IMG/VR virus record: IMGVR_UViG_3300046810_000299
Location: 1 to 36,231 of that record
Length of the DNA stretch: 36,231 nucleotides
Strand: one strand, 5' to 3'
Source: a virus
This document shows positions 1 to 17,300 of this stretch, piece after piece. Below the pieces are notes generated by a model. It ran no database searches. It had not been told where the DNA came from and saw nothing but the letters and a program-made list of their open reading frames with translations. The translations under genes were made by a program, and so were the position numbers. The first letter of the stretch is position 1; each line of letters starts with the position of its first letter.

Positions 1-1
1 C

Positions 2-238
2 GTCGTGGTCGATATCGACACCGAGGTCGATAACGACCTCGACAAGATCATCGGGGAAATGGACTCGTTCGACCTCGCACTGCATGGCCTTGCGCGTGGC
101 GAAGACACCGAAGTGATCGAAGCCACGTGGCTGAACATCCGCAATGCCATGCGCCGCGGCGACCGCGGCGCCGCCAGCCAGATGATCGCCGACATGGCCT
201 ACAGCCAGGCCGGCGTGATCCTTCCTCCCCTGCATTGA
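2..238 (+). CDS. Small acidic phage protein, possibly 5'-truncated by the window edge
   Basis: The frame is open from the first bases of the window and ends with TGA at 236-238. The first possible start visible is GTG at 5, with no room to see a ribosome binding site, so the gene may begin outside the window. The product is about 77 residues and acidic at its N-terminus, with helical-looking leucine/alanine-rich sequence. No domain is recognised. It opens a + strand series of small genes and is followed after 12 bases by the next one. Function unknown; real gene likely from codon usage and spacing. Confidence 0.6.
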   Translation, partial: VVVDIDTEVDNDLDKIIGEMDSFDLALHGLARGEDTEVIEATWLNIRNAMRRGDRGAASQMIADMAYSQAGVILPPLH

Positions 239-250
239 CCGGAGTAGCCA

Positions 251-631
251 ATGCCCACTTCCGCCCTTACCCCCGCCAACGTCACCGCGACCATCAGCGA
301 AGCCGCTGAGAAGCTGCGCGAAGCGGGCAATCAAGATCTCGCCGGCCGTCTCATCCTCGCCGGCGCCAGCGTCTCGATCGGAAACGACAGCGCCGTGGTG
401 CAGGCGCTGGTAAGCGCACTCGTGCACGAGTGCCGCGCCGCCTCCGCGATCCTCCAGGCCACCTTGGCGGTCATGACGACGGAGCAGAAGAACGACCTCG
501 CGAAACGCGTCGACGAGCGTGGATTCATCGGCAAGGAGGGTGGCACGACCAGGCACTGGGACCGCAACGAAGTCGTCGCCCGAGCTGAATGTTTCCTCTA
601 CGTCACCAACAAACCCGGCGTCCTTCACTGA
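251..631 (+). CDS. Hypothetical early phage protein, 126 aa
   Basis: ATG at 251 is preceded by GGAG about 7 bases upstream, a good ribosome binding site. The product is alanine-rich and mostly helical in character, with one Cys near residue 57 and one near residue 114. There is no signal peptide or membrane segment. It lies 12 bases after the first small gene and 31 bases before the next, so the three are probably one operon. I do not recognise the family. Confidence 0.7.
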   Translation: MPTSALTPANVTATISEAAEKLREAGNQDLAGRLILAGASVSIGNDSAVVQALVSALVHECRAASAILQATLAVMTTEQKNDLAKRVDERGFIGKEGGTTRHWDRNEVVARAECFLYVTNKPGVLH

Positions 632-662
632 CGCCCTGCCCCCGCGCAACCACGGAGATTCC

Positions 663-965
663 ATGAACTCAGTAGCAGCTTCCAACCGTCTTGCAAGTGC
701 GCAACCTGCTCCCCTGGCAGCCGTTCCCGCCGCGATCGAGTCGCTCGGCGGCAGCCTGTCCTATCTCCAGGATCGTCTCTCCGTCCTGCGCACGCGACTC
801 GAACCGGTACTTGCCCCGCCTGACGTCGCTGGTCAGACCGCGAGCAAGAGCATTGGCGATTCGCGTTACCTCGTCGCGGTCGCCGATCAGGTAAGCGATC
901 ACGACGCCATCGTGCGCAGCCTCTCGGCGACTGTCGACGATCTCATCCAGCGCGCAGCGCTTTGA
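663..965 (+). CDS. Hypothetical early phage protein, 100 aa, helical
   Basis: The ATG at 663 is chosen over an earlier in-frame ATG at 519 because it has GGAG 6-7 bases upstream and avoids a 113-base overlap with the preceding gene. The product has an alanine/proline-rich start and then a heptad-like stretch (about residues 30-50, L/R/V spacing) suggesting a short coiled coil. The C-terminal third is also helical. It is the last gene before the structured non-coding stretch that starts at 973. No known domain; function unknown. Confidence 0.65.
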   Translation: MNSVAASNRLASAQPAPLAAVPAAIESLGGSLSYLQDRLSVLRTRLEPVLAPPDVAGQTASKSIGDSRYLVAVADQVSDHDAIVRSLSATVDDLIQRAAL

Positions 966-972
966 CCTCCCC

Positions 973-1152
973 GCCCCGTGGAGGAGCACGGGGCACAAGT
1001 GAGGTGGTTGCCTCTGGGCGGTTCCCGGGGGACGCAACAGCCACCTCACTTGTAACGAACTGGCTGAAAGGCCTCCGAGGTGGAGTGACGCGAGCCGCTG
1101 CCGACCGACCACAGAAACGGGAACAAGCGCGGCGTGGGGTGATGGACCACTG
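973..1152 (+). ncRNA. Candidate structured RNA element, copy A
   Basis: This stretch has no gene of its own and folds by eye into a layered structure. An 8-bp hairpin 973-980/987-994 has a GAGGAG loop. It is followed directly by a perfect 13-bp long-range stem 995-1007/1041-1053, with an extension GTTGC 1007-1011/GCAAC 1034-1038 inside. A GCCGC/GCGGC pairing (1094-1098/1129-1133) and the motif GATGGACCACTG (1141-1152) close the unit. The same order of parts, with different stem sequence, recurs in copy B at 1291. The strand is assumed from the neighbouring genes; the fold is symmetric enough that the minus strand is possible. Not matched to any RNA family I know. No obvious terminator or promoter was found. 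Confidence 0.5.
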
Positions 1153-1290
1153 GCAAAGCATCTGACAGCTGGGAAAGACCAGCACTGAACAGAGGGCCCG
1201 GCGAGCCCAGCGATAGATCCCAGGAGTTGGGGCAACGGCAGATCAGAGAGCGTGTACCTGCCGGCACGATCGCAATCAATCGTCCTCGCC
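1153..1290. other. Spacer between the two structured elements
   Basis: These 138 bases separate copies A and B. I see no convincing gene, promoter or terminator here. Short self-complementary runs such as GGGCCC (1194-1199) and a GCCGGCA run near 1260 are present but do not form an extended stem. Confidence 0.4.
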
Positions 1291-1498
1291 GCCCTGTCGA
1301 GTAGCACAGGGCACAAGCAAGTCACCTGGGTCATCCGATGTACGGGTGCGACGACCTGGAAGCCCCCGGGGCGTACCTCTCCAAGGTGACTTGCTTGTCT
1401 GACCGCTCGACAGCGTGCGCTAACCCTGGAGCGCGAATACCGGGATTTGTCACTCGTGTCTTGACGGACCACTGAGGTGTAACGGCCTCGGTCGAGCG
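1291..1498 (+). ncRNA. Candidate structured RNA element, copy B
   Basis: Second copy of the element at 973. The apical hairpin 1291-1297/1306-1312 matches copy A except that one C-G pair (977-990) is replaced by T-A (1295-1308), a compensatory change. The following stem is a perfect 15-bp pair, 1313-1327/1384-1398, whose sequence differs from copy A beyond its first five bases while pairing is kept. Inside it lies GTACG 1340-1344/CGTAC 1372-1376. A 5-bp hairpin follows at 1417-1421/1430-1434, then the shared motif GACGGACCACTG (1463-1474). An 8-bp closing stem 1404-1411/1491-1498 encloses the 3' half. The spacing from first hairpin to shared motif is 172 bases, against 168 in copy A. The next gene starts 51 bases later, so it could also act as a 5' leader. 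Confidence 0.5.
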
Positions 1499-1548
1499 TT
1501 CAGCGTTCTCTTTCAATGCGCTCCGGCACTGCCAGCAAGGAATCGAAC

Positions 1549-1905
1549 ATGTCGAAATTCGCCGAAGGCTACATCAACGTGACAGGCCTCAACGTGCGTG
1601 CGTTCGCGACGGCAGCGTTCGATCTCAGTCCACCACCGCGGCTGGCGCATCTTGGCCTCGCGCCTCGCCAGATATCGCCCGACGTGCTCGATCAGATTCT
1701 TGCCGACTTCGACGAGGGTGCGCAGGAAGGAATCCTGCTTGCCTTGCGTCTCGACTACGTCGAAGGCCGCGGATGCAAGATCAGCATCTGGCGCGAACAT
1801 GACGGACAGCTTTACATCCGCGATACCTGGTACGACCACGACGAAGACGATCTCACCGCCCTTCTGGCGCGCGCCCTTACCAGCGCCAGCGCATCGGTTG
1901 CTTGA
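1549..1905 (+). CDS. Hypothetical phage protein, 118 aa
   Basis: ATG at 1549 has AAGGA about 7 bases upstream; the earlier in-frame ATG at 1516 lacks such a site. It is the first gene after the two structured elements, whose last stem ends at 1498, so its 5' leader may include part of copy B. The product has a mixed alpha/beta look, with a strand-rich centre (about residues 60-95) rich in W, Y and acidic residues, and an alanine-rich C-terminal helix. No family recognised. Confidence 0.65.
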   Translation: MSKFAEGYINVTGLNVRAFATAAFDLSPPPRLAHLGLAPRQISPDVLDQILADFDEGAQEGILLALRLDYVEGRGCKISIWREHDGQLYIRDTWYDHDEDDLTALLARALTSASASVA

Positions 1906-1911
1906 CGCGTG

Positions 1912-2172
1912 ATGTCCGGCATTCCTGTCCGCCACCGCGAGCGCCCGCGAATCATCCTCGACGCCAGTGATCTTCGCTGGGCCGAATCGTTCGCCGTGCC
2001 CGCTCCCAGGCCTTGCCGCGAATGCGGCGCGTGCCAGCACTTCCTTCCCAACCCTCTCAACCCGCAGGCCGGTCTCGGCTGGTGCAACGGCGAACGCGCC
2101 GGCATCGGCCAGTACCCCGGCGCAGATCCGATGTGCCCGGGTTGGTCAGCCGCCAATGGAGATAATCAGTGA
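1912..2172 (+). CDS. Small Cys-rich protein, probable zinc-binding
   Basis: Starts GTG at 1909 and ATG at 1912 are adjacent; the ATG is chosen. The product of 86 residues carries a cluster C35-x2-C38-x2-C41, then a single Cys near residue 58 and another near 75, with conserved-looking W and G residues. This is the pattern of a small metal-binding or Fe-S-like phage protein, but the ligand is inferred. Its stop codon overlaps the GTG of the next gene (GTGA, 2169-2172), so the two are probably translationally coupled. Confidence 0.65.
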   Translation: MSGIPVRHRERPRIILDASDLRWAESFAVPAPRPCRECGACQHFLPNPLNPQAGLGWCNGERAGIGQYPGADPMCPGWSAANGDNQ

Positions 2173-2867
2173 CGCAAACCAGCGACATCCTCGAAGCCAT
2201 TCGTGGCGCCGGCATCCCGCTCAATACGACGCAGCTCGCAGAGCAGTTGCCGCACATCCCGAAACCCAGCATCTCGGCTGTTTGCAGCCAGCTGCGTCAG
2301 CAGGGCGTACTCACCGGCGCCGTCGAGGACGGACGTGTCGCCTTCCGAGTCGTCGCCGGCGCCGGCCCCAGCGACGCGTACAACGTCAACGTCGACGATG
2401 AAGCTGCCGACGCAGGGGACGACGAGCCCGCCGGCGCGATCCAGGGCCTGCTGTCCGGAGACGTAAAGCCGATTGACGTCGGTCCTGCCGCGGTGAAACC
2501 GCCGACGCAGTCGTTCAGCCCGCGCAGCATGGAACATCGTCAGCGCCGGGAACCCGATATGTCCATCGAAATCTCGCAGGATCCGCGCTCCTTCAGTGCC
2601 GTCCTTGAGGCGCTGACGAGCCAGGGCGACACCATGCGCCGGTACACCTTCGATCGGGACGAGCCCGAGAAGGACAACACGCAGGCAAATCCCGAGTTGG
2701 CGGCAGTTCGTTCCGAACGCCCGCGCGGGACCGTTACCACGCGCCCCGCGCGCAACGACGGCCGCCTGTGCCGCGAGCTCGCCGCGGCCGTCCTCGCGCG
2801 CTGGCCCGGCGAGATCCCCTACGACGTCCAGCTCCTGGTCAACAGCGCCGCCACCCTCCCCCTCTGA
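2169..2867 (+). CDS. N-terminal winged-helix protein, putative regulator
   Basis: A GTG start overlaps the previous stop by four bases. Residues 1-60 read like a winged helix-turn-helix (helix, PKPSISAV recognition-like helix, then a GVLT...GRVAFRVV wing), as in small MarR/LexA-like DNA-binding modules. Residues 70-130 form an acidic, proline-containing linker. The C-terminal 100 residues hold a mixed segment and a helical end (RLCRELAAAVLARW). It lies 13 bases upstream of the ParB-like gene. A role in controlling early genes or in cooperation with the ParB-like protein is inference. A downstream ATG at 2560 could give a shorter product. Confidence 0.65.
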   Translation: MTQTSDILEAIRGAGIPLNTTQLAEQLPHIPKPSISAVCSQLRQQGVLTGAVEDGRVAFRVVAGAGPSDAYNVNVDDEAADAGDDEPAGAIQGLLSGDVKPIDVGPAAVKPPTQSFSPRSMEHRQRREPDMSIEISQDPRSFSAVLEALTSQGDTMRRYTFDRDEPEKDNTQANPELAAVRSERPRGTVTTRPARNDGRLCRELAAAVLARWPGEIPYDVQLLVNSAATLPL

Positions 2868-2880
2868 GCAGGAGCTCTCC

Positions 2881-5031
2881 ATGAACGCTGTTACTGCCGA
2901 CGAAGTCATCTATGTCCCGCTGTCGAAGCTGCGGGTGTCCGAAAAGAACGTGCGCAAGAAGGGTGAGCTGGGTATCGAACAGCTCGCTGCGCAGATCCAC
3001 GCAGAGGGCCTGCTGCAGAACCTGGTCGTAGTCGCCAACAAGGGCGGCGTGTACGACATCGTCGACGGCAAGCGTCGTTTCCTCGCCCTGCAGCACCTCT
3101 CGAAGGGCATGCTTCTCGACCTTGATCGCGAAGTGGCCGTGAAGATCGTCGACGCGTCTCACGCGACGTCCGCCAGCCTGTCCGCTGCCTTCAGTCAGCT
3201 GCCTCTGCACCCTGTTGACCAGTTCGATGCCTTCCAGGCTCTCGTGGACGAGGGCAAGTCGGCCGCTGAAGTTGCCGCGGCTTTCGGCATCCAGGAGCGC
3301 GCGGTCCTGCAGAGCCTTCGCCTGGCTGGCGTAGCACGCCCGATCATCGAGGCATACCGGAACGACGAGATCGGCATGTCCGTGCTGCAGGCCTTCACCC
3401 TGACCGACGATCCGAGGCGCCAGCTGCAGGCGTTCAAGAGCCTGCCGAAATATGGCGACGACGACGACCACGTCCGCCATGTGCGTGACCATCTCACACA
3501 GAAAGAGGTTTCGCTCGGCACGAGCCGACTTGCGAAGCTCGTTGGCGTGGATGCGTACGAAGCTGCCGGCGGCGCAACCCGCCGCGACATGTTCTCTACG
3601 GATGTCTTCTTTTCAGACACCGCGCTCGTCCAGCGAATCGCCGATGCAAAGGTGGCCGATCTTACGGAGCGTGTACGGGCAGAGGGATGGGCGTGGGTCG
3701 ATGTGCGCTTGGAGAATGCCAGGCTCTACGAGTACCAGGCGCGCAAGCCCAAGATCTCGCCGACGACGCCAGAGCAGGACAAGGAACTCAAATCGATAAA
3801 GAACCGTCAGGAGCAGCTCGGCAAAGAGCTCGCCGAGCATCGGAAGTCCGAGCCCACCGACGGCGACGAGAGCTCGCCAGCCTATCTAGAGTGGGCGCAG
3901 GTCGTTGGGTGGCGGGAACGCGAGCATGCGCAGCTCGGCGCGCGCGATAGTCAGATTCGGGCCGAGTGCGAGACCTGGAGCTCTCGCACGCTTTCTGAGG
4001 GTGGCGCGTTGATCACACTGACCCATGACGGCGAGCTCGTCGTGCACAGGGGCCTGATCGATGAGAAGACATCGAAGCGGCTCGCCAAAGCAAAAGCCGC
4101 GAAGCCGGCTGCAGGATCCGCAGCAGACGCAAACATGACCGAACTGCCAGAGATCTCCGACTCGCTACATCAGCGACTCGCTGCCTATCGCTCAAGCGTG
4201 ATCCGGCGCCAACTGCAGCTGAATACCGGCGCGATGTTGGCTGTGCTTGCGCACTCTCTGGTCCGGGGCACTTTTGGCCACCACAACTGGGGAAATGGCG
4301 TCACGACGATCTCGTGTAGCCCGACGGACTCGAATCACGCGATGGCCGGGGTCGACATGGATCAGTTCACTCCGCACCTCAACCTCTCGCTTGATCGATC
4401 AGCGAGCTCGAAAACCCTTCCGGATGCGTCCGTGCCGGCACTGCAGGAGTTGTTGTCATGGAGTGACGCGCACCTTCTAGAACTTATCGCTAGCTGCGTG
4501 GCAACGTCGTTCAGCGGCATCTACGGAAAGGGGTTCGGCGGGGAGCGTGCCGACCTTATCGACCTTCTGGTCGAATTCCTCGACATCGACATGCGCGACC
4601 ACTGGCAGGCCGACCAAGACCGGTATCTCGGCCACGTGCCGAAGCCCTTGATCATCCAGGCTGTGACTGAAGCGAAGGGCGCCGTCGCAGCCAAGCCGCT
4701 CGCCACCATGAAGAAGACCGAGGCTGCCGAGGCTGCCGAGATCCACCTCGAGGACGCAGAGTGGTTGCCGGCGTTGTATCGCCGCAAGAGCTCGCCCGCT
4801 GGCATTTCCCAAGAGGAGGCTGTCGCACATATCCAGCAACTGCTAGAGACAAAGCGCCAGCGAGACGGGAAGCCCTCATCGTGGCCCGCGAATCCCGAAG
4901 CCGCTCCGATCACGGATAAAGCGCGCCCGAAGCTCAAGGCCCCTCCCATCACAAAGGTCACTGGCAAGAACGCCACGGTCAAGAAGACAGCGGTGAAGAA
5001 GGTCGCCGCCAAGAAGGTTGCGAAGGCATGA
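2881..5031 (+). CDS. Large ParB/Srx-fold DNA-binding protein
   Basis: ATG at 2881 has AGGAG upstream. Residues 10-90 match the ParB N-terminal domain: PLSKLRVSEKNVR, then EQLAAQIHAEGLLQNLVV, then YDIVDGKRRFLAL with G63-K64-R65-R66 in place of the usual GERR nucleotide-binding box. Residues 100-190 contain HPVDQFDAF and a helix-turn-helix-like segment (SAAEVAAAFGIQERAVLQSL), as in ParB/KorB/Spo0J. At 716 residues it is over twice the length of chromosomal ParB. It has a charged coiled-coil-like middle (300-360) and a basic C-terminal tail of repeated KK-[TV]-A units, which may bind DNA non-specifically. No ParA is nearby, so a role as phage regulator or DNA-coating CTPase is as likely as partition. 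Its stop overlaps the next start (ATGA). Confidence 0.88.
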   Translation: MNAVTADEVIYVPLSKLRVSEKNVRKKGELGIEQLAAQIHAEGLLQNLVVVANKGGVYDIVDGKRRFLALQHLSKGMLLDLDREVAVKIVDASHATSASLSAAFSQLPLHPVDQFDAFQALVDEGKSAAEVAAAFGIQERAVLQSLRLAGVARPIIEAYRNDEIGMSVLQAFTLTDDPRRQLQAFKSLPKYGDDDDHVRHVRDHLTQKEVSLGTSRLAKLVGVDAYEAAGGATRRDMFSTDVFFSDTALVQRIADAKVADLTERVRAEGWAWVDVRLENARLYEYQARKPKISPTTPEQDKELKSIKNRQEQLGKELAEHRKSEPTDGDESSPAYLEWAQVVGWREREHAQLGARDSQIRAECETWSSRTLSEGGALITLTHDGELVVHRGLIDEKTSKRLAKAKAAKPAAGSAADANMTELPEISDSLHQRLAAYRSSVIRRQLQLNTGAMLAVLAHSLVRGTFGHHNWGNGVTTISCSPTDSNHAMAGVDMDQFTPHLNLSLDRSASSKTLPDASVPALQELLSWSDAHLLELIASCVATSFSGIYGKGFGGERADLIDLLVEFLDIDMRDHWQADQDRYLGHVPKPLIIQAVTEAKGAVAAKPLATMKKTEAAEAAEIHLEDAEWLPALYRRKSSPAGISQEEAVAHIQQLLETKRQRDGKPSSWPANPEAAPITDKARPKLKAPPITKVTGKNATVKKTAVKKVAAKKVAKA

Positions 5032-5480
5032 GCGTTGACGAACCCATGCCTGAAGCCGCCGCAGGTCCAGACCGGGCCAACTTCCTTTTCCATCGCTTCA
5101 CCTTCGACCTGCGTCAACGGTGGATTGAGAACGAATTCAGGGTTTACCTGCTGACGCTTGCGACGCCGGTTGACCGTCATGCACTCACTTGTCATGACCT
5201 TCTCGAAGGGTCTGGCTACGAGCCTCAGCCTCTCACTGGGCGGCGGATAGCCTACGGAGCTCTCGACGCTGACGGTGTCAGGTTTCAGGCGATCGCGGGT
5301 ACCCGTCTTATCCACTCATTGCTCATCGCGGAGATCAGTCCGGAAGGGACGCCATTGCCGGCGCTCTTCGTCGGCATGTCCCCCGGCTTACCGATGACGC
5401 CTAACGGTGGTGACGTACTCATCTCATGGGACGCGGGCGCGGAGCGCATCTGCCGACCCCATCCGCGGGAGCTGCAATGA
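5028..5480 (+). CDS. Hypothetical protein coupled to the ParB-like gene
   Basis: ATG at 5028 overlaps the ParB-like stop by four bases, indicating translational coupling. The 150-residue product looks like a soluble alpha/beta protein: an FDLRQRWIENEFRVYLLT segment near residues 25-45, then strand-rich sequence with glycine turns. No catalytic motif, signal peptide or membrane segment is visible. The stop (TGA 5478-5480) overlaps the ATG of the J-domain gene at 5477. Function unknown; coupling suggests it works with one of its neighbours. Confidence 0.65.
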   Translation: MSVDEPMPEAAAGPDRANFLFHRFTFDLRQRWIENEFRVYLLTLATPVDRHALTCHDLLEGSGYEPQPLTGRRIAYGALDADGVRFQAIAGTRLIHSLLIAEISPEGTPLPALFVGMSPGLPMTPNGGDVLISWDAGAERICRPHPRELQ

Positions 5481-6124
5481 CGATCCCCGCCTTCCCTCTC
5501 GCCTGGCCAGACGGCTGGAAGCGTTGCCCCGAGCATGGCCGCCACCCGGCCAAGTTTGGGCGCAAGACCCAGTCCACCACTGGCAGCTGGCAGACCCGCA
5601 GCGCGTTGACCATCAGTCAAGCCGTCGACCGCGTGCGTGCCGAACTTGTTCGTATGGATGTCAGCGGCGACGACCTGGTCATCAGTTCGAACCTACTGCT
5701 CCGTCTCGACGGCCTGCCCCGGTCGGGCCAGGCCGAACCTCGTGACCCCGGTGTTGCCGTGTACTGGCAGCGCCGGAACGAGCGCAACGACCCGCCCAAG
5801 TGCATGGCCATCGACCGCTACGACCGTGTTGCCGACAACCTCGCGGCCATCGCTGCGACGCTCGAGGCGATGCGCGCGATCGAGCGCCACGGCGGTGCCG
5901 CAATCCTCGAGCGCGCATTCACCGGGTTCGTCGCGATCGAGAACCACTCGAAGCCGTGGCCCCAGGTGCTCGGTGTCACTCCCGAGGCCCTCGATGTCGA
6001 CGTCGTCGAGGCGTATCGCCGGCGGCGCTCTGCGACCCACCCAGACGTCGAAGGTGGCGACGCGGAGGCCTTCCAGCGCATTCAGGATGCCTACGCGGCG
6101 TTCCGCAAGGAGCGTGGCCTGTGA
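5477..6124 (+). CDS. J-domain (DnaJ-like) phage protein
   Basis: ATG at 5477 overlaps the previous stop; an upstream in-frame start at 5426 would overlap more and is not used. The last 50 residues are a J-domain: helix, the invariant H188-P189-D190 (in ATHPDVEGGD), then a helix ending FQRIQDAYAAFRK. The first 150 residues are a separate domain with WPDGWKRCPEHGRHPAKFG near the N-terminus and a SISQAVDRV-like helix. J-domains stimulate Hsp70 ATPase, so the protein probably recruits host DnaK to a phage substrate held by the N-terminal domain. That substrate is unknown. The J-domain sits at the C-terminus rather than the usual N-terminus. Confidence 0.85.
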   Translation: MTIPAFPLAWPDGWKRCPEHGRHPAKFGRKTQSTTGSWQTRSALTISQAVDRVRAELVRMDVSGDDLVISSNLLLRLDGLPRSGQAEPRDPGVAVYWQRRNERNDPPKCMAIDRYDRVADNLAAIAATLEAMRAIERHGGAAILERAFTGFVAIENHSKPWPQVLGVTPEALDVDVVEAYRRRRSATHPDVEGGDAEAFQRIQDAYAAFRKERGL

Positions 6125-6525
6125 CAGACGAGACGACACCGGCACCGGAGCCGAAGAAGGTCAGCGGCGGGTTGCGGATGGCGAAAGCCACGCCCGAAGA
6201 CATAGAGAACGCGTTCGAGCTGGCCAGCCTTCTGGATCAGGTCGACCGCGGAGACTGGCCGTACCTCGGCGCCGAAGAACCCGAAGACGCCCCGGACCGG
6301 ATCGACGACGAGGACATCGAGCACCTGCAGCACGTCTACGAGCTCGTTCGGACGTTGGCACGTCGCGGCGGACTGTGGCGCGTCGTCATGGGCTTCGACA
6401 TGGTCCTGCGCAGCGACCTGCTGAATCCCGCGGTGGATTACATCGAGGTGAACCCGGTCATCAATGCGCTCGTGGACAAGTCGAACGCCGCAGACTCCGC
6501 GGCGGAGCAGGAGCCCAGCACGTGA
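6121..6525 (+). CDS. Hypothetical acidic phage protein, 134 aa
   Basis: GTG at 6121 overlaps the preceding stop (GTGA). The product has a P/T/E-rich N-terminus and an acidic middle (about residues 55-75, many D and E). A helical C-terminal half follows, containing LARRGGLWRVVMGFDMVL. No domain recognised. It ends overlapping the next GTG at 6522. Confidence 0.65.
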   Translation: MTDETTPAPEPKKVSGGLRMAKATPEDIENAFELASLLDQVDRGDWPYLGAEEPEDAPDRIDDEDIEHLQHVYELVRTLARRGGLWRVVMGFDMVLRSDLLNPAVDYIEVNPVINALVDKSNAADSAAEQEPST

Positions 6526-6812
6526 TCGCCCTGCTTCTCGCCACCGGCCTTGCCGGATCGCCTGCTCCCGCTCCGGCTGCACGTGCGTGGTGCGGCCACT
6601 TGGCTCACAGCGCCAGCACGATCGAAGAGGCCCGCTTGTCCGGGATCCCGCGCCTGAAGGTTGTCCTCGGAGCCACGCTCATTGCCGACGCCGGCGAGCG
6701 CTCCGCGCAGTACGAACTCATCAGCCTGGTTTACGACGGCAATGCCGGCGGCCAGGCATCGCCCGCCGAAGTCGCGGGCATCACCTACACCGCTTGCATG
6801 CGAGGAGCCTGA
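6522..6812 (+). CDS. Small protein with possible signal peptide
   Basis: GTG at 6522 overlaps the previous stop. The first 20-23 residues (IALLLATGLAGSPAP...) form a short hydrophobic stretch with small residues before an ARA-like cleavage site, which would suit export, but there is no N-terminal positive charge. The remaining 75 residues contain two Cys (residues about 24 and 92) that could form a disulphide after export. No family recognised. Alternatively it is a soluble protein with a hydrophobic N-terminus. Confidence 0.55.
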   Translation: MIALLLATGLAGSPAPAPAARAWCGHLAHSASTIEEARLSGIPRLKVVLGATLIADAGERSAQYELISLVYDGNAGGQASPAEVAGITYTACMRGA

Positions 6813-6814
6813 CC

Positions 6815-7279
6815 ATGACCGTGCTCGACATCCTTGAACAGAAATGCCGCGTCTGCGGCTGCACCGAAATGCGGGCCTGCAAGGGCGGATGCCACTGGGT
6901 CACACCCGATCTCTGCAGCGCCTGCCAGGTCGACGAAGGCGATGCCCTCGTCTTCGTCGAGAATAACGCCGGCGCTATGCGCATCGCCCGTGAGCGCCTG
7001 CGCCAGCTCGCCGAAGAGAACTACACGGTCGAGGGGGACCTTTCATACGTCACCGGCGAGCTGGCAGCAGCTGCGTGCTGCTACGCCATGCCCATGTATC
7101 TGCGCGAAATGGACGGCTTGAACATGTGGCTGCTATGGCCTTGGGGATCGGCCAGCTGGAAGCCCGCGCCTTCGCCAGTGACAACGGAGGGCCGCATCCG
7201 CGAGCTTGCGAAGGCCGGCGCTCTTATCGCGGCAGAGATCGATCGCTTGCTCGCCGCGGAGCCATCCCATGACGAGTGA
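6815..7279 (+). CDS. Zinc-ribbon-like phage protein, 154 aa
   Basis: ATG at 6815 follows GGAG nine bases upstream. Residues 11-37 contain six or more cysteines (C11, C14, C16, C22, C26, C34, C37) with the order CRVCGC...CKGGCHWV...DLCSAC, a pattern common in small phage proteins and likely to bind zinc. The C-terminal part is helical, with conserved-looking tryptophans (MWLLWPWGSASWKP) and an EGRIRELAKAGALIAAEIDRL helix like other phage proteins of unknown role. It overlaps the next gene by 11 bases. Confidence 0.72.
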   Translation: MTVLDILEQKCRVCGCTEMRACKGGCHWVTPDLCSACQVDEGDALVFVENNAGAMRIARERLRQLAEENYTVEGDLSYVTGELAAAACCYAMPMYLREMDGLNMWLLWPWGSASWKPAPSPVTTEGRIRELAKAGALIAAEIDRLLAAEPSHDE

Positions 7280-7679
7280 AGAGAAGCTCTTCGACCCGGC
7301 CCGTATGCCAGCTCGCGACGACGAGGGAAAGGCCTGGCATCCAGACTTCGACGACCGCTGGGAGCACCCCGTTTTCGGGGAAGAGTACGTCTGCACGCTG
7401 AAGCTCGCACAGGCCGGATTCGCCTTCGCCTTCCATCACATGGATCCGAACGACGAGGAATTTGACAGGGCGTGCGAAAGCAGCGACTTCTCGATGTGGA
7501 CGCCTCGCGATATGTCGGCCGAAGGCTGGTGGGGCGTCGGCATCGGCGACACCGAGGACGGCCCCTGCGCCTGGTACGTCCGCCCCGTCGAAGGCGAGGC
7601 CCAGGCCGCTCTGATCGCCAAGGAGCGCGAGGCGCTCGACAAGCTTCAGGACCCTCGCTCCAACACGGGGCATCACTGA
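7269..7679 (+). CDS. Hypothetical phage protein, 136 aa
   Basis: ATG at 7269 lies inside the end of the zinc-ribbon gene. The product is acidic and rich in W, F and D. Notable segments are DFDDRWEHPVFGEEYVC (about residues 25-41) and DMSAEGWWGVGIGD (about 80-93). The sequence looks like a compact soluble fold. No known family; encoded in the middle of the early operon. Confidence 0.62.
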   Translation: MTSEEKLFDPARMPARDDEGKAWHPDFDDRWEHPVFGEEYVCTLKLAQAGFAFAFHHMDPNDEEFDRACESSDFSMWTPRDMSAEGWWGVGIGDTEDGPCAWYVRPVEGEAQAALIAKEREALDKLQDPRSNTGHH

Positions 7680-7681
7680 CT

Positions 7682-8542
7682 ATGGATACCTCGATAATGC
7701 CCATCAAATCGTTCCAAATCGGCGTCTCCCAGTGGCTGGTTGACTGCCTCGGCGTCGACTGCGCCATGGATACGCACGAGCGGAATCACCGCTTCCTCGA
7801 GGAGGCCCTCGAACTCGTGCAGTCAAAGGGCTGCACCGCGTCCGAAGCGCACCAGCTCGTCGACTACGTATTCAACCGGCCCGTCGGTGAGCCCGTCCAG
7901 GAAGTGGGTGGCGTCATGGTCACCCTCGCCGCCCTCTGCACTGCCGCGGACATCGACCTGGCTACCTCCGCCGACGACGAATTGCGCCGGATCTGGACGA
8001 AGGTGCCCGAGATCCGCGCGAAGCATGGGGCGAAGCCGAAGCACTCGCCACTTCCGGAGACGGCCACGGACTACCGGGGAAACCCGGTCGACCCGACGTA
8101 TCTTCTCGTCCGTGATCCAGCCTTCTGGGCTCGCGCAGAATCGGATGCCTGGCACCGAGCCATTCCCGACGTTCGCAAAGCGTTCCAGGATCTCGCCCGC
8201 GCTACGCCGTCGAGCACCTTGAAGTTCTTCGGTGTCGACGTTGCTGACGGCGTCAGCACCACGGTTCGTGGCCACGTCGACGCAAAGGGCAACTACCACA
8301 TCGACGACATCCAGCAGGAGCCCGTACCCAGCGTGGAAGAGACCGCCAACGCGCTATGCCTTGTCGGAGACACCGAGCACATCACCGACGAGGCGATCGT
8401 TACCTGGACGGACGCACAGCGGCAGGAAGCGTTCGACTGGGCCATTGCCCTTCACTACCGCGCCAGCGATAACGACGACGTCGAGGTGCCGCAGCGGCCC
8501 ACGTTCACCATCGCGGCCTCGGCGGAGGCAACGCGTGGCTGA
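7682..8542 (+). CDS. MazG-like nucleotide pyrophosphohydrolase family protein with extra C-terminal region
   Basis: ATG at 7682 starts two bases after the previous stop. Residues 33-110 resemble phage MazG-like proteins: RNHRFLEEALELVQ with E40-E41-x2-E44, then QEVGGVMVTLAALC starting near E74. MazG-type enzymes hydrolyse NTPs to NMP and pyrophosphate and use an ExxE...ExxD metal site. Here the last Asp position is Gly (E74-V-G-G77), so activity is uncertain. The C-terminal 170 residues are additional: a DPTYLLVRDPAFWARAESDAW segment and a D/E-rich end, which suggests a fused domain of unknown role. It overlaps the next gene by eight bases. Confidence 0.75.
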   Translation: MDTSIMPIKSFQIGVSQWLVDCLGVDCAMDTHERNHRFLEEALELVQSKGCTASEAHQLVDYVFNRPVGEPVQEVGGVMVTLAALCTAADIDLATSADDELRRIWTKVPEIRAKHGAKPKHSPLPETATDYRGNPVDPTYLLVRDPAFWARAESDAWHRAIPDVRKAFQDLARATPSSTLKFFGVDVADGVSTTVRGHVDAKGNYHIDDIQQEPVPSVEETANALCLVGDTEHITDEAIVTWTDAQRQEAFDWAIALHYRASDNDDVEVPQRPTFTIAASAEATRG

Positions 8543-8762
8543 GTACACCGCCCGCTGTGCCGCCCGAGACACCCGTCGCGCTATCGCGCGAGCCGAGAAA
8601 GCGCTCGAGCAGCTGCGCAACTGCGCCGTTCACTGGGCAGACCTCGATAGCTCATTCGAAAGCGACGTCGACAGCATCGAAGTGCCGCAGGACATCGTTC
8701 GCCTAAAGGAAGACCTCGATGGGGTGTACCCAACTCGGGCGAAGGGACGGATGTCCCAATAA
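8535..8762 (+). CDS. Small helical protein, 75 aa
   Basis: GTG at 8535 lies inside the end of the MazG-like gene, and the stop shares one base with the ATG of the next gene (TAATG). The product is an arginine/alanine-rich helix, with heptad-like ARDTRRAIARAEKALEQL near the N-terminus, followed by an acidic stretch. No domain recognised. Existence is supported by the tight overlaps on both sides. Confidence 0.55.
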   Translation: MAEYTARCAARDTRRAIARAEKALEQLRNCAVHWADLDSSFESDVDSIEVPQDIVRLKEDLDGVYPTRAKGRMSQ

Positions 8763-8968
8763 TGGACACGAAAATCGAGAAAATGAGCCCATTCGCCGAC
8801 TGGATGCAGGCCTGCGGCCTCCCCACGATCAACGCGGCCGCCAATGCGCTTGGCGTCCACCGCCATACAGCCGAGAGGATGCACAAGCGCGAACTCACGA
8901 AGTTCGAACGCCTCGCCATGGCCGCCGCCTACCACCGCATCAAGCCTTTCGACAGGACCTCGCCGTGA
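8762..8968 (+). CDS. Small helix-turn-helix protein (Cro-like)
   Basis: ATG at 8762 overlaps the previous stop by one base. In its 68 residues, TINAAANALGVHRHTAERM (about residues 21-39) reads as a helix-turn-helix with the usual ALGV turn and a polar recognition helix. It is followed by a KFERLAMAAAYHR helix. It probably binds DNA as a dimer and represses or activates a phage promoter. The stop overlaps the next GTG (8965). Confidence 0.68.
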   Translation: MDTKIEKMSPFADWMQACGLPTINAAANALGVHRHTAERMHKRELTKFERLAMAAAYHRIKPFDRTSP

Positions 8969-9675
8969 GCAGTGAAACGATTGCCCTGGACCAGCTTGCC
9001 TACCGCGCGTGCAAGCTCAACCGCATCACACGCGACGAACCGGGCGCCGGCGAGCTCGCGAAGATGGAGCGTCTGATCGAATTCCTGCGTCCTCACCTCG
9101 TTGCGCAGGAGGCCGCACAGCGGAAAGGCGCGGTGAGCTTCGATGACTGGTACGTCCAGCATTCGTTCGATTACGAACGCCACCCGCTGGGCAGCCGGGA
9201 GTGTGAGTTGCAGCGGGAAGGCTGGGATGCCGCGCTCGCCGCCAAGCCAACTGGCGACACCTGCACGTGCCCGACGTGCGGCGACTGGTACGCGGCCGAA
9301 GACATCGACAGGATGGTGAAGGAGATCTCCGACGCTCTGGGGTCGACGGCGACCCATCCGAAGCTCTGCGACATCGTCGTTGAGACGGTACGGGCCGTTC
9401 GCGAGGATGCCGCTCAGCCGCGGCCGATGGACTTGTCGGATGGGTTGCCGTTCGACGATGACGTGCAGGAGATTTTGGGGCGCATGTGCTTCCAGTGCAT
9501 CAGCATTGCTGGGGCCCTACGCAAGATGGGGCACGTCATCGACCGCAAGGCCGAGGCGGAACAGGCGTCCGTTCTGCACTGGCTCCTTGGTCACTACTTA
9601 CGCAGCGGCAAAGAATGGCGTGCGGCGGCCAGTGACGAATTGAAAGCGGCCGCGCCGGAGGTGCGCCATGGCTGA
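8965..9675 (+). CDS. Hypothetical phage protein with a central CxxC pair
   Basis: GTG at 8965 overlaps the HTH gene's stop by four bases. The product has 236 residues. A segment near residues 55-85 (SFDDWYVQHS...RECELQREGWDAAL) resembles short sequences found in many phage early proteins. Then comes a C-x-C-x2-C cluster around residue 100 (TCTCPTCGDWY). The C-terminal half is helical and resembles unknown-function phage proteins, with FDDDVQEILGRMCFQC and a final helix. Metal binding through the Cys cluster is plausible. Function unknown. Confidence 0.65.
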   Translation: MSSETIALDQLAYRACKLNRITRDEPGAGELAKMERLIEFLRPHLVAQEAAQRKGAVSFDDWYVQHSFDYERHPLGSRECELQREGWDAALAAKPTGDTCTCPTCGDWYAAEDIDRMVKEISDALGSTATHPKLCDIVVETVRAVREDAAQPRPMDLSDGLPFDDDVQEILGRMCFQCISIAGALRKMGHVIDRKAEAEQASVLHWLLGHYLRSGKEWRAAASDELKAAAPEVRHG

Positions 9676-9838
9676 TTCCTTCGTCAAGACCAAGGCCATG
9701 GCCGACCCGAACTACAACCCGTACTGCCTGCGCCATGCCGCGTGCGGCCGTATGGAGAAGGTCGAGACCATGTTTTGGCGGTGTCCCCGCTGCGGCGCCG
9801 AGCACGACGAGCGGGAGGGCACCATTGATGGCGCTTGA
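9668..9838 (+). CDS. 56-aa zinc-ribbon protein
   Basis: ATG at 9668 overlaps the end of the previous gene by eight bases, and the stop TGA is at 9836-9838. The product holds C20, H23, C26 and a second knuckle C39-P-R-C42-G, a small zinc-ribbon pattern. It overlaps the next ATG (9828) by 11 bases. A role as a nucleic-acid or protein adaptor is inferred from the motif only. Confidence 0.6.
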   Translation: MADSFVKTKAMADPNYNPYCLRHAACGRMEKVETMFWRCPRCGAEHDEREGTIDGA

Positions 9839-10061
9839 AGGCATGAGTCTTCCGGAGTTACGCAACGAACTCCGGATGTATGCCGGGCGTGCAGAGGGCA
9901 TCCACGTCAGCCCGTCCGCCTTCGTCGTAATGGCCGAAGCGATCGACGCCAATCTTGGTCGGCTTGAGCGCCTTGCCCGCCTGTGGGAACTGCCGACACG
10001 TGCCACCCGCGACACCGTGAACTGTGCGGACGCCCTGCGCGAGGTCATCGCCGATGCATGA
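9828..10061 (+). CDS. Small helical early protein, 77 aa
   Basis: ATG at 9828 lies within the end of the zinc-ribbon gene. A second ATG at 9843 is preceded by GAAGG and could be the true start. The product is helical, with leucine/arginine repeats (LPELRNELRMYAGRA, then LGRLERLARLWELP). No domain recognised. It overlaps the next gene by eight bases. Confidence 0.58.
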   Translation: MALEGMSLPELRNELRMYAGRAEGIHVSPSAFVVMAEAIDANLGRLERLARLWELPTRATRDTVNCADALREVIADA

Positions 10062-10290
10062 CGCCAACGTCACCGAGGCAACAGCCTTCGTCCGACACTT
10101 CTGGGTCGTCGAGTACGCACGTTCGTTTCGCCGGCAGGTAACGACCCACGACTTGATCGCCCGCTTCGGGTGCTCTCGCGCCTCGGCTTACCGCTACATC
10201 CACGCCCTCCGCGACCTGGGCGTGCTCGGCCAGGACAACCGGCCCGTGCGCCGTGCCGCCGATGGATCTTCGACCGTCGAGCATTGCTGA
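10054..10290 (+). CDS. Small HTH DNA-binding protein, 78 aa
   Basis: ATG at 10054 (an in-frame start at 10024 would overlap more). TTHDLIARFGCSRASAYRYIHALRDLGVL (residues about 30-58) is a clear helix-turn-helix followed by the start of a wing, as in replication or transcription regulators of phages. It is placed just before xis/int, so it may regulate the lysogeny switch. It overlaps the excisionase start region by about 30 bases. Confidence 0.7.
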   Translation: MHDANVTEATAFVRHFWVVEYARSFRRQVTTHDLIARFGCSRASAYRYIHALRDLGVLGQDNRPVRRAADGSSTVEHC

Positions 10291-10570
10291 GGAAAGTGAC
10301 GAAGTGCTTCGCTACCTGACCATCCCGAAGTTTTCCGCAGAGTCCGGGTACACCGAGGATGCGGTGCGGGCAAAGATGAAGGCTGGCGTCTGGCTCGAAG
10401 GCGTGGTGTGGGTGAAGGCGCCCGATGGGCGCATCTTGATCAGCGTGGAAGGCTACGAGACATGGGTGGAAGGAAACATGCTGGCGGCGGTGCTGGGATC
10501 CGCTCCGAGAGCGCGAAGAGCATCATCGTCGACTTCTACTATCGCGGTGTTCGGTGCCGCGAGAGGCTGA
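10262..10570 (+). CDS. xis: Excisionase (Xis)
   Basis: Starts are GTG at 10253 or ATG at 10262; the ATG is listed. The core (about residues 18-72: YLTIPKFSAESGYTEDAVRAKM, then GVVWVKAPDGRILISVEGYETWV) matches the small winged-helix excisionase family found next to tyrosine integrases. Xis bends the attachment DNA and steers Int toward excision. The C-terminal 30 residues are low-complexity and overlap the integrase gene in another frame by 109 bases, so translation past about residue 75 may be of little function. Confidence 0.85.
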   Translation: MDLRPSSIAEESDEVLRYLTIPKFSAESGYTEDAVRAKMKAGVWLEGVVWVKAPDGRILISVEGYETWVEGNMLAAVLGSAPRARRASSSTSTIAVFGAARG

Positions 10571-11649
10571 AGCTGGCGCCGACGCCGGGGAATCAGCGCT
10601 TCGTATCCAACCTCCGCGCCCGGATCCAGGACGACATCGCCCGCGGCACCTTCGACTACGCCAGCTACTTTCCCGACAGTAAGAAAGCCGTTGCCATGGC
10701 CAAAGCGCCCGGCGCGGCCGTGTTCGTTCGGGATGCCCTGCGCCAGTACCTCTCCGGACGCCGCAGCGAGCTCGAGCACACTACGTTCGGCGACTACGAG
10801 AAGGCGATCGAGAACGAATGGATTCCCTACCTTGGTGACCTTCGCCTGGTAGAGGTGACCCGAGGTGTCCTGAAGGAGTGGGTCGCCCAGAAGGGCGCCG
10901 GCATCAAGAGGATCCGCAACCTCCTGCTCCCGCTACGCGGCATGTTCGCCCAGACTTTCGACGACGGCATCATCCCCATGAACCCGTTCGTGGGTTGGAC
11001 ACCGAAGAAGATCTCCCCGCCCAAGGAGGAGGATGACGTCGACCCGTTCAGCCAGGCCGAGGTGAACCTGATCCTGGAGAACTCTGTAGGCCAGGTCCGG
11101 AACCTCTTTCAGTTCTGCTTCTGGACCGGTCTGCGCACCAGCGAGGTCATCGCCCTCCGCTGGGACGACGTCGACCTGAAGGGCCGCACCATGACCATCC
11201 GCCGCGCGAAGGTGCGCAAGCAAGAGAAGGCACCGAAGACCCGCGCAGGCCGTCGCACCGTTACGCTCCTGCAGCCGGCGTACGACGCCCTGGTCGCACA
11301 GCGCCAGCACACCCAGCTCGCCGGACTCGAGATCTTCCTGAATCCGCGAACCGGCGCTCCCTGGGAGCACGACGGCCCGATCCGGAAAACGGCATGGCAG
11401 CCTGCGCTGAAGCGCGCTGGTGTCCGCTACCGGTATCCCTACCAGACCCGTCACACCTTTGCGTCGACGCTTCTATCCGCCGGCGAGAACCCCGTCTGGG
11501 TGGCCACCATGATGGGTCACAAGGACTGGGCCATGATCATCAAAGTGTATGGCCGGTGGATCCCCTCGATCGCTCCGGACGCCGGCGACAAGGTTGCGGC
11601 GCTTTGGTCCGTTTCTAGTCCGAAGATCGCGCAAGTGGTTGATCCGTAG
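10462..11649 (+). CDS. int: Tyrosine-family phage integrase
   Basis: ATG at 10462 gives 395 residues. The N-terminus (GGGAGIRSESAKSIIVDF..., RGVRCRERLKL) is the DUF3596-type arm-site-binding domain seen in phage integrases. A SAM-like core-binding domain spans about 90-175. The catalytic domain shows R225 (in TGLRTSE), the lysine-bearing beta-hairpin (KAPKTRAGRR), R330-H331 (in YQTRHTFAS, with Tyr at the usual first His position, as in related phages), H353 (in MMGHKDW) and nucleophile Y363 (in VYGRW). It catalyses site-specific recombination between attP and attB. The gene ends 3 bases before the tmRNA 3'-end copy, and a 12-mer arm-like repeat lies inside its last codons. It looks intact. 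Confidence 0.95.
   Translation: MGGRKHAGGGAGIRSESAKSIIVDFYYRGVRCRERLKLAPTPGNQRFVSNLRARIQDDIARGTFDYASYFPDSKKAVAMAKAPGAAVFVRDALRQYLSGRRSELEHTTFGDYEKAIENEWIPYLGDLRLVEVTRGVLKEWVAQKGAGIKRIRNLLLPLRGMFAQTFDDGIIPMNPFVGWTPKKISPPKEEDDVDPFSQAEVNLILENSVGQVRNLFQFCFWTGLRTSEVIALRWDDVDLKGRTMTIRRAKVRKQEKAPKTRAGRRTVTLLQPAYDALVAQRQHTQLAGLEIFLNPRTGAPWEHDGPIRKTAWQPALKRAGVRYRYPYQTRHTFASTLLSAGENPVWVATMMGHKDWAMIIKVYGRWIPSIAPDAGDKVAALWSVSSPKIAQVVDP
11603..11614 (+). repeat. Arm-type repeat TTTGGTCCGTTT (left of core)
   Basis: This 12-mer lies within the 3' end of int and recurs exactly twice on the other side of the att core. Eleven bases further on there is a degenerate copy containing TAGTCCG (11616-11622). This is the likely P-arm integrase binding site; the function is inferred from symmetry and spacing. 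Confidence 0.55.
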
Positions 11650-11830: not shown

Positions 11831-12166
11831 ATGAAGGCAAACGCATACGCGACGGTAATGATGATGGCCCTCTCCTGTGATGTCGAAGGAGAAGGGTTTC
11901 TTTTCTCAGTTCGCCGCGTCGACGGGACGAGCGATGACAAGTTCTTCAAATTCGGTCAGGCGAAAACGATAGAGAGCAGCGAAGTGGCTGCTTTCATCCC
12001 TGAGTGGCGAGACCTCGATTGGTCCACGATTCCGGACTCCATGCTTTCCAAGAGCGAGTCCTTTGCGATCGGATCGAAGTACCGATTCAATGTCAGGGCT
12101 ACAGAAGGCAGCGGCCTCAATCACGATGCGGCGCGAAGCGCATTCCTGGCATTTTTGGCAAGCTGA
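11831..12166 (+). CDS. Accessory (moron-like) protein next to attP, 111 aa
   Basis: ATG at 11831 has AGGAAG upstream; the longer frame from 11705 would cross the arm repeats and is rejected. The product starts KANAYATVMMMALSCDVEG and then resembles a small beta-rich soluble domain (GFLFSVRR...FFKFGQ). Base composition is visibly less GC-rich than in neighbouring genes. A position just inside the phage end, flanked by terminators, is typical of lysogenic-conversion genes. No family recognised. Confidence 0.6.
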   Translation: MKANAYATVMMMALSCDVEGEGFLFSVRRVDGTSDDKFFKFGQAKTIESSEVAAFIPEWRDLDWSTIPDSMLSKSESFAIGSKYRFNVRATEGSGLNHDAARSAFLAFLAS

Positions 12167-14353: not shown

Positions 14354-17300
14354 CTAATTGGCAGCAAATCCTCCCACCTCGGCGCGGATCCGCGGCGCCA
14401 GCTTCCGGTTGAGCTGGATGCCGTTCTCGGCTTGCGCGGACTGATGAGCCCGCCGACGCAGCGACGCCTGCAGGTTGCCCATCCCGATCGAGATCTCAGG
14501 GTACTTCTTGTTGAACGTGCGGATCTTCGCCAGCGCCTCCGATCGCGACCCGCTGTCGCCGCTATTGGTTGCCATGGCGAAGGCGTTCATCAGGGACTGC
14601 CGGCGATCCTGGACGCCCTGCTGATAGTTCATCATCGCGCTGTTGACCCGCTGTTGCTCGGCGATTTTGGTCGGCTGGAACCCGATCGCCTGAATAAGTT
14701 TTTCCGGGCCGCTGACGTCCGACACGATCGGGTCGCCACGCAGGTTGTTTACGCCTTCCTTGGCGAAGCGCACCGACTTCATCGCATTCTTGATGAAGGT
14801 CGGCATCATGGTTTCGACGCCGCGCTCGGTGTGGCCCTGGCTGACCATGTTCGAGCCGACGAACAGGTTCTTCGTCAGTCCGCCGATCGGCCCTGCCATC
14901 GATTCCAGGAACTGGTCATACGCGGGACCGCCAACGAGCTGCTTATCGGGCTCGCGAAACCACAGGTCACTGGTACCGACGCGGCCCGAAATGTTCGCGC
15001 CGAGCTGGTCGACAACACCGTCGGCGATCACCGAAGCGGCGCGCGCCCCGAGGTGATCACTCAGCCAGGCGCGGAACTCGGTGTTGAAGTCCCATGGCGT
15101 GTCGTCGTCACCGGTGGCGGCGTGGTACGCGTTCGCGCCAGCGGACAGCAGATTGTTGATCGGTGTACCCATGATGCCGGCGAAGAGAGTGGTCATGCCG
15201 AGCACGCCCGTCAGCGTGCGGCGGGCCACGCGGCGCACCTCTGGCGTCTCGCCGCGGAGGGACTGTTCGAGGTTCCGATACAGCACCCAGCTCATGCCCA
15301 GGGCGTAGTTCTTGAACTGGAAAAGCACCTTCTGGGCGTTCCCCTGCATGAATCGCGCGCGGTTCGCGTTCGAGTAGTCGAAGTGTGTGCCGTTCACGAT
15401 CTCATCGGCGTACTTGATCGCCTCGTTGAAGCTCTTCCCATCCTTCGTAGCCAGGCGGAACGCCGCGATGCCGGCGGACTCGCGGTTGATCACTTCGGCC
15501 TTCTGGAACATGTAGCCCATGGCCGTCATCACCTTGGCGTAGGCCGGGTTCATCTTGAGCGCGTCGCCCTCGGCGATGCCGCCGAGGCTGTGAGTCGCGG
15601 TACGAGCGAACGTGCCGTTTGCTTCGAGTGTATCGAACGCCCGACGCTCGTCGTCCGTGGCGAGTACCTTGCGGATATTCCCGAAGGTCCGCATGGCATC
15701 GCGCGTGGCGAATCCCATCTCCCTCATGGCCGCTGGCCACCCGTGGCGCGCGCCAAGAACAGGGAGCGTCACCATGGCGCCCTGCGAGAGGTTGACCAGG
15801 GCGGACGCCGGTGACGCACTCAGGTAGTAAGTGAATCCGACCGAGTTGATCATGGTCGCCAGCTTCGAGTTGGTCGGGTTCATGATCCACTGGTGGCGTT
15901 TGGCCAACTCCCCGACCAGCGCATCGGCATGCGCGGCCTGGCCGACGCCCATCAGCGGCCGGTTGCCTTCCACGGTCGCGCGCATGTGCTCCATGGAGTC
16001 CTCCAGCTGGTACCCATACCGGGCCCGTGCGATCTGGTGGGCACCATGCAGGACGTTGCTGGCGAAGATCCGCGGCACGTTGTCGGTGTAGCCGGCCACG
16101 TTGCTGCGGTGGATTCCGCTTTTGCGCAGGGAAAGCTCCGGCAACGTGCGCAGGAACATCTGATGAATGTCGTCCAGAACCTTATCCGGCGCACCGCCCT
16201 GCCGCAGCATGCCCGTCAACTGGCCCATGAAGGTGCCTGTAACCGGCTTCTGAGTCTCGTAGTCCTTGTTCTGGCGGCCGGTTGCTTCGATGGTGTGGCC
16301 CGCGGCTAGCAGCTTCTTCTCTGCCCGCTGCGCGGCATACGCATCCTCGTACTTCGTGAAGTGGTACTCGCCGCCCTCCCCGTCCTCGCCAGGCAGGCGC
16401 GAGGCGATCCAGTAATCGCCGAAGCGCGCCAGCGGGAAGTACACGCCACCTACCTTGTTGTCGGCGAAGTTGGTTCGGACCATTTCCGCGGCCGCGCGTT
16501 TGTTCTGCTCGGGGATATCGAGAGCCTGGATCCGCGCCAGTGTCGCCTCCTCGAGGCGCTCCGACGTCTCCCGATAGTGGTCGCGCATCATGGTGAACAT
16601 CTCTTTCGCCTCGGGCGACAGCGCGTTCCACTTGGCGACCTGCTCCGGGTACTTCAGCTCGCGCACCTTCTCGCGTGCCGGGAGCTTCCGGAGATCCTTG
16701 ATCTGGTCGAGGAGTGCCGTCTTGTCGTCGCCGGCGCGGCCGCGCATCTGCTCCTGCAGAGTCTTGATCCGCTGCTTGCGCAGATCTTCGGTCCACGGCG
16801 TCTGCTCGCCGCGGTCGTCCCGCATGAGCAGCCGCTCGTAGTCGCTCGTCGGGTCGACGGTGACCTGCGTGACCTCGTGCATGAACTTGAACAGACCCTT
16901 GGCTTCCTCCGTGAGTTTGCCTGCCCAGCCAGCCGGTCCGTGCTCGAACGACCACTTATTCAACCGGTCGGCCTTGGCGGAACCCTCCATCGTCATGGTG
17001 TTGCGGTCGGCGTCCATGCGCTGAAAGGTGTCGGCGTAGAAATCGGCGTGCCGCTTGAGCACCTTCGTATCGCTGGCCAGCTCGAGCACGTGACGCAGTT
17101 GCAGGGCGCCCAGCAGATGTGGCTCGGCATCCAGGAGCTTGCCCTTGGCCCACTCTTTCGCGCGCTGGAAGGCACCGTCGTCGAGCTTGGGCATAACCTC
17201 GTTCATCGACTCGATCGAGGCGGAGGCTTTGCTGAAGGGTTTGCGGGTGGTGCCTGGCTCTTCGCGTTCGCCGCGGTCGTCCAGGGAGAAGTCGCTGCGC

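Follow-up and report, generated by a model that had tools for sequence, protein, structure and literature searches.

Just upstream of an early gene of a temperate phage, two stretches of DNA appear to specify the same folded RNA, which raises the questions of what this RNA is and what it may do. The window, meaning the whole 36,231-nucleotide stretch of a virus record that was analysed, belongs to a temperate phage that encodes a tyrosine integrase, a polyvalent protein of 3064 aa and an SRAP protein. A blastn search against GenBank phages gave no match.

The two copies in the window

An earlier note, made from the letters alone, had described a structured element present twice in tandem, the copies having diverged. 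Their presence is confirmed by repeats found without guidance, by folding and by covariation in homologues. An unguided repeat search of the window returned the direct repeats 966-999/1284-1317 (85%) and 1133-1152/1455-1474 (80%), together with the inverted repeats 995-1010/1038-1053 and 1313-1330/1381-1398 (94% each). Positions 973-1055 fold at -58.4 kcal/mol (z = -7.0) and positions 1288-1400 at -58.0 kcal/mol (z = -5.0), and in neither case was any shuffle equally stable. The element starts at 967 and 1285 rather than at 973 and 1291 as first proposed, since CTCC and CTCG pair with GGAG and CGAG in what had been taken for a loop. The covarying pair C977-G990 versus T1295-A1308 was read correctly. 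The loop of the first hairpin is not open, and the hairpin is one half of an H-type pseudoknot. The parts of both copies and the genes around them are as follows.

663-965, upstream gene in the window; S1 of copy A starts 1 nt past its stop codon
967-1053, + strand, copy A, whole
967-970, + strand, copy A, S1 5' strand CTCC, first half of the pseudoknot helix
973-979, + strand, copy A, S2 5' strand GCCCCGT
980-983, + strand, copy A, S1 3' strand GGAG, pairing with 967-970 (covariation, alignment columns 3-6 with 16-19)
988-994, + strand, copy A, S2 3' strand ACGGGGC
995-1053, + strand, copy A, stem III and enclosed hairpin (arms 995-1010 and 1038-1053)
1054-1283, + strand, spacer between A and B, holding the GATGGACCACTG motif (1141-1152), with no assignable conserved structure
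1285-1398, + strand, copy B, whole
1285-1288, + strand, copy B, S1 5' strand CTCG
1291-1297, + strand, copy B, S2 5' strand GCCCTGT
1298-1301, + strand, copy B, S1 3' strand CGAG
1306-1312, + strand, copy B, S2 3' strand ACAGGGC
1313-1398, + strand, copy B, stem III and enclosed structure (arms 1313-1330 and 1381-1398)
1404-1498, + strand, copy B, 3' domain closed by stem IV (1404-1411, CGCTCGAC, with 1491-1498, GTCGAGCG)
1549-1905, + strand, downstream early gene, 118 aa, weak phrog_12532 match, ribosome site AAGGA at 1537
10408-11649, + strand, tyrosine integrase, at the far end of the same-strand early block

Both copies had also been said to end in GA[T/C]GGACCACTG. This ending is common to A and B but is not a feature of the family, and around B it lies in the separate 3' domain (about 1404-1498). 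The gene at 1549-1905 is not kept beside the element in other phages.

A close relative of the window is G002, a 64-kb contig that bears both copies. The two differ at 28 positions in 661-854 and at only 5 in 855-1905, a clustering that suggests a recent recombination edge just 5' of the element. The polyvalent protein (14354-23548, - strand) has inorganic pyrophosphatase, LPD23 and LPD39 domains and is related to DarB-like antirestriction proteins. A 716-aa protein with a ParB-like N-terminus (2881-5031, + strand; phrog_7783) shares about 30% identity with proteins in four other viral contigs. Hairpin promoters for an N4-like virion RNA polymerase were considered and rejected, since similarity to phrog_2206 in the 3064-aa protein is confined to the N-terminal part. 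A retron or DGR RNA was likewise rejected for the window, in which no reverse transcriptase was recognised. Contig G004, and no other, does have a DGR-like reverse transcriptase near the element, read from translation and some 2 kb away (L087, 7015-8436, - strand).

Fold of the element

In the aligned heads, four bases that lie 2 nt 5' of the first hairpin pair with that hairpin's loop to give S1. The head is thus an H-type pseudoknot, composed of S1 (4 bp), a 2-nt linker, S2 (7 bp), no second linker, S1', 1-8 nt and S2'. The S1 variants are CTCC/GGAG, CTCG/CGAG, CGCC/GGCG (in L166 and L169), GCCC/GGGC (in L168, L171, L173, G115 and G125) and CAGG/CCTG. Two of these, CGCC/GGCG and GCCC/GGGC, provide independent support for the pseudoknot.

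Stem III starts right after S2'. Its base is always ACA...TGT, the sequence above is nearly free, and the whole unit ranges from 58 to 119 nt across relatives with no constant reading frame. About 10 copies have a stem IV that starts exactly 2 nt 3' of stem III (for example GGCAGTG..CACTGCC, GGATCGG..CCGATCC and GGACCGG..CCGGTCC); all 70 of its 70 cells pair, and four pairs are changed on both sides. This fourth helix had been missed in the first description. The 3' part of copy A, 1055-1160, folds with z = +1.1, such that its structure is not above chance.

Relatives and covariation

Covariance models R1 and R2 were built from the copies and used for searching, and further viral contigs were found by pattern scans for parts of the head. 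Besides the window, 25 viral contigs carry the element, and so do 7 bacterial genomes from a single family of soil bacteria, Rhodanobacteraceae. The bacterial carriers are G006, G057, G094, G115, G125, G131 (with two copies) and G170; the genome of Rhodanobacteraceae bacterium ZG21-1 was recognised as a carrier by the head pattern scan. Some viral contigs are evidently prophages of carrier genomes, with identical element sequence (for example G240/G170 and G244/G057). R1 and R2 find a single element in each contig except the window and G002, which have two; in G525 a second one, diverged, accompanies the first.

All accepted R1 or R2 matches in 399 genomes of the order fall within Rhodanobacteraceae, and G006 alone has any among 369 genomes of the class, with the proviso that both models include head sequence and may miss diverged relatives elsewhere. 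The head is nearly invariant among phages of this one host family that are otherwise unrelated. Weak model matches in G148, G235, G213, G212, G062, G658, G556, G876, G576, G643 and G814 were inspected and rejected, as none has the head; most are ordinary intrinsic terminators (ACAAAAAAGCC..GGCTTTTTTGT). G121 and G211, outside this inspected set, gave similarly weak matches. Most pattern matches in genome contigs were set aside as chance.

Across 24 distinct copies 97.7% of cells pair, a percentage that is inflated by picking the 3' arm of stem III as best partner, although such picking cannot create variety in pair type, and 14 of the 25 pairs are changed on both sides. In a control with slid structures at most 43% of cells pair. 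The covariation score is 0.444, whereas slid structures score no higher than 0.12 and shuffled ones no higher than 0.141. The early suspicion that pairing is conserved while sequence changes therefore holds in homologues, including independent swaps of the pseudoknot helix. What is preserved, as far as natural base-pair swaps reveal it, is shape rather than sequence.

The swaps also speak to the strand. Stem III cells contain 24 G-U but only 4 A-C combinations, which indicates that the selected molecule is RNA of the sense strand. Gene orientation likewise places the element on the + strand. A conserved coding region was rejected, given that stem III units are unrelated in length and share no conserved frame; translation from the minus strand, which the earlier note had raised as a possible undoing of its reading, also finds no conserved coding frame.

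Searches of Rfam 15 gave no match at gathering score for the window and 7 relatives, and none at E <= 10 for window positions 940-1560, in a collection that includes EAR, GOLLD, ROOL, ribozymes and riboswitches. The description of the element as unrecognised and likely a new phage RNA is supported by these searches and by homologues in many phages. Judged from sequence comparison, the two tandem elements are almost certainly members of a new structured RNA family with this fold. The family is new in that it is absent from the catalogues searched.

Geometry without sequence

One diverged copy was reached by way of a gene. Searching the genomes of the family for a KOW-like upstream gene, rather than for element sequence, uncovered L248 in G094, where about 200 nt 3' of the KOW-like gene stands CAGG-TG-ACCCCTT-CCTG-CGCGGCAC-AAGGGGT-ACAGATCAGG...CCTGATCTGT-AC-GGCAGTG...CACTGCC. 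No helix of the head or stem III keeps its sequence, and the geometry is the same. A descriptor devoid of sequence except ACA/TGT matches 27 distinct copies in the fetched data, which are enriched in elements: 25 of known type and two diverged, namely L248, obtained independently via its gene, and the second element of L162. The same descriptor has no match in 1.5 Mb of shuffled sequence. Because the shape outlives total replacement of its sequence, ordinary similarity searches miss the element, and it may be far commoner than its known carriers suggest.

The KOW-like family (61-65 aa, SGE.G.VIARAEY) is possibly RNA-binding, and its relatives include gp32 of Bcep176 and L33 of P2-like phages. 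The gene lies directly 5' of the element in nine contigs (G004, G057, G241, G244, G246, G247, G249, G526 and G528), and copies were noted at L248 1500-1690 and Bcep176 11989-12165. As a partner protein it was rejected, since it is absent from more than 20 contigs and occurs without the RNA in L249-L251. In Bcep176 the genes come in the same order and a non-coding stretch occupies the matching position, yet the architecture was not found there. That stretch, after gp32 (NC_007497, 12165-13022), carries strong inverted repeats, GAGGGCGCCTC/GAGGCGCCCTC, in another architecture, and is perhaps another early-operon RNA.

Genomic setting and possible function

Wherever neighbouring genes can be read, the element is intergenic and on their coding strand. 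By gene names read from translations, 15 contigs have a same-strand repressor-like gene 3-6.5 kb 5' of the element, and 10 have a DnaB-like gene on the opposite strand. About 1.6 kb 5' of the element in G532, repeated ATGGAATNCCAT motifs (operators) flank a TTGACA promoter-like site that was recognised by eye. Downstream come RdgC-, YqaJ- or ERF-like recombination genes and then, in the window, G005 and G006, a same-strand integrase. The element sits where a lambda-type phage would have its PL operon. The widest gene family occurs in 15 of the 33 element-bearing contigs, several of which are fragments, and none is common to all, which points to a reader supplied by the host.

The function tentatively favoured here, by analogy, is action in cis through a host factor that reads the element, as with put of HK022 or EAR of B. 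subtilis. The proposal is drawn from the location within the early transcript region, from a head that spans a host family and from the lack of a common phage partner. The element would be transcribed inside the early-operon mRNA, fold as it emerges and act in cis. RNA polymerase, or a factor associated with it, would read the rigid head and so keep transcription going into the distal genes for recombination and integration, much as the RNA-only antiterminator put or the mid-operon EAR acts, the element being neither. Stems III and IV would serve as stabilising, exchangeable ballast. The fold, the covariation, the geometry of L248, the descriptor, the sense strand and the position in the operon are all counted for this proposal. 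Strict intrinsic terminators number 14 on the + strand within 4 kb upstream of the element, and from 0 to +8 kb downstream none was found on either strand of about 30 contigs, in a scan to which Rho-dependent terminators are invisible. There is therefore no visible terminator to overcome, which counts against antitermination by a host reader. Also against a put-like model, the element is usually single in a genome and absent from the divergent operon, in G532 it comes about 1.6 kb past the promoter-like site rather than at the operon start, and the sequence of stem III is free.

Nearly as likely as the host-read cis element is punctuation of the mRNA, and the same holds for a trans-acting decoy. 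As punctuation, the element could be a processing or exonuclease-blocking barrier that sets, within one transcript, the lifetime of the upstream small genes relative to that of the downstream recombination genes. Its helices are very stable (-58 kcal/mol over about 83-113 nt), and in most copies with a callable upstream gene it starts 1-13 nt past the stop codon, as 3' stabilisers do. Many downstream genes moreover carry a GCCGGC-loop-GCCGGC hairpin of their own right before the ribosome site. A plain hairpin would suffice for such a barrier, and the pseudoknot geometry, the near-invariant head and the single copy are left unexplained. The GCCGGC hairpins are themselves a repeated leader structure in these phages (L007, L009, L104, L109, L162 and others), lying 15-60 nt before early-gene start codons and adjoining AA(A)GGA ribosome sites.

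The contents of stem III bear on the trans-acting alternative. The 3' domain of copy B (...GTGCGCTAACCCTGGAGCGCGAATACCGGGAT...GACGGACCACTGAGG...GGCCTC...) closely resembles the stem III content of L103, L104, L117, L119 and the first element of L162, so that one domain can lie either inside or after stem III. Other units (L100, L109, L114 and G057) hold a tRNA-like cargo. Sub-threshold matches only were found for L109 in Rfam, the best being a full-length match of 7275-7354 to the tRNA-Sec model (24.1 bits, E 0.008 in a small search, below the gathering score of 47), and L100 and L109 differ by one compensatory change in this cargo. The tRNA-like identity is a lead. A tRNA gene was rejected, as ARAGORN detects no tRNA in the window or in 11 relatives, and a pattern match in L121 is by eye an ordinary tRNA-Met. 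The cargo has no sequence similarity to those of the host's own tRNA genes that were examined.

Such an RNA might be cut from the early transcript and then inhibit a host factor or divert it as a decoy, the target being for instance a defence nuclease or an RNA-binding protein and the exchangeable cargo being the part that works. This reading, possible to the same degree as punctuation, would account for a shape kept while sequence is free and for swapped cargo (the domain of copy B within stem III, of the L103 type and in L162), one of which matches tRNA-Sec over its full length. The tandem copies in the window and G002, the two elements of G525 and the location in an early, fast-evolving region also fit. 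Against it, no promoter-like site was found in window 1-10500, and none of the element's own near copies A and B, nor was a terminator of its own found in the window. The longest complement to the phage's own transcripts is 11-15 nt, in the same range as random windows, and there is no partner gene. The earlier note had listed leader or regulatory RNA and decoy among the roles; these keep their place among the readings weighed here, whereas the searches for an own promoter-like site and antisense complementarity came back empty. Rather less probable is that the RNA is defined by its geometry, as a platform of rigid pseudoknot and coaxial stem for interchangeable domains that acts early on a host machine or defence factor. 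The domains plugged into such a platform would be a tRNA-like fold, a second pseudoknot-like domain and plain hairpins.

The genes beside the element vary nearly every time; a lipoprotein gene, for instance, is 3' of it in L007 and 5' in L132. This variety, and the recombination edge just before the element in the comparison with G002, would suit a conserved joint for gene exchange in mosaic genomes, or a mobile cassette in the form of a small selfish RNA inserting behind stop codons. A joint in DNA needs no compensatory base changes, however, L248 shares no head sequence through which recombination could occur, and no empty, element-free site was found. A linker or cassette of this kind is improbable.

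Comparison with known systems

The put RNA of HK022 needs no phage protein (PMC9378689). It is about 70 nt long, with two stem-loops and no pseudoknot described, and is found just after PL and 270 nt after PR; both stems contact RNA polymerase, in which put binds to the zinc-binding domain of beta' (PMC9378689). Like put, the element is an early-operon phage RNA with two adjacent helical domains; no phage protein partner was found in the element-bearing contigs, several of them fragments, and reading by host polymerase would explain its conservation within one host family. Unlike put, it has a pseudoknot head and a stem III unit of 58-119 nt, often with stem IV. Whereas putL and putR lie near PL and PR, it is usually a single copy well inside the operon, with none in the divergent one and no intrinsic terminators seen downstream. 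In architecture and in copy number and placement, the element fails the defining features of put.

The eps-associated RNA (EAR) of Bacillus acts in cis on elongation and antiterminates distal intrinsic terminators (PMC7858274). Like EAR, the element is intergenic, on the coding strand and inside a long operon. It differs from EAR in lacking an Rfam match, in its hosts and genes, and in having no strict intrinsic terminators within 8 kb downstream that need read-through. REP and BIME sequences are stable intergenic palindromic hairpins that lie right after stop codons in many scattered copies per genome. The element, by contrast, has one copy per genome as a rule, a fixed orientation and a pseudoknot, and is phage-borne.

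GOLLD RNAs are associated with tRNAs. The ornate RNAs ROOL and GOLLD (PMC12286853; Rfam) are large structured RNAs that likewise belong to phages and prophages, but the element matches neither in Rfam, is a fraction of their size and is intercistronic in an early operon. It also differs from antisense regulatory RNAs of the c4 and P4 CI type, given that extended complementarity to its own phage's transcripts was not found beyond the 11-15 nt noted above. Structured RNAs of temperate phages with a known job are few, and those that have one, such as put, nut/boxB and the P4-type immunity RNAs, have taught much about transcription control. The present element has about 30 homologues, an unambiguous fold and natural compensatory variants; its host genomes are identified and its place in the operon is defined, all of which make its function testable at once.
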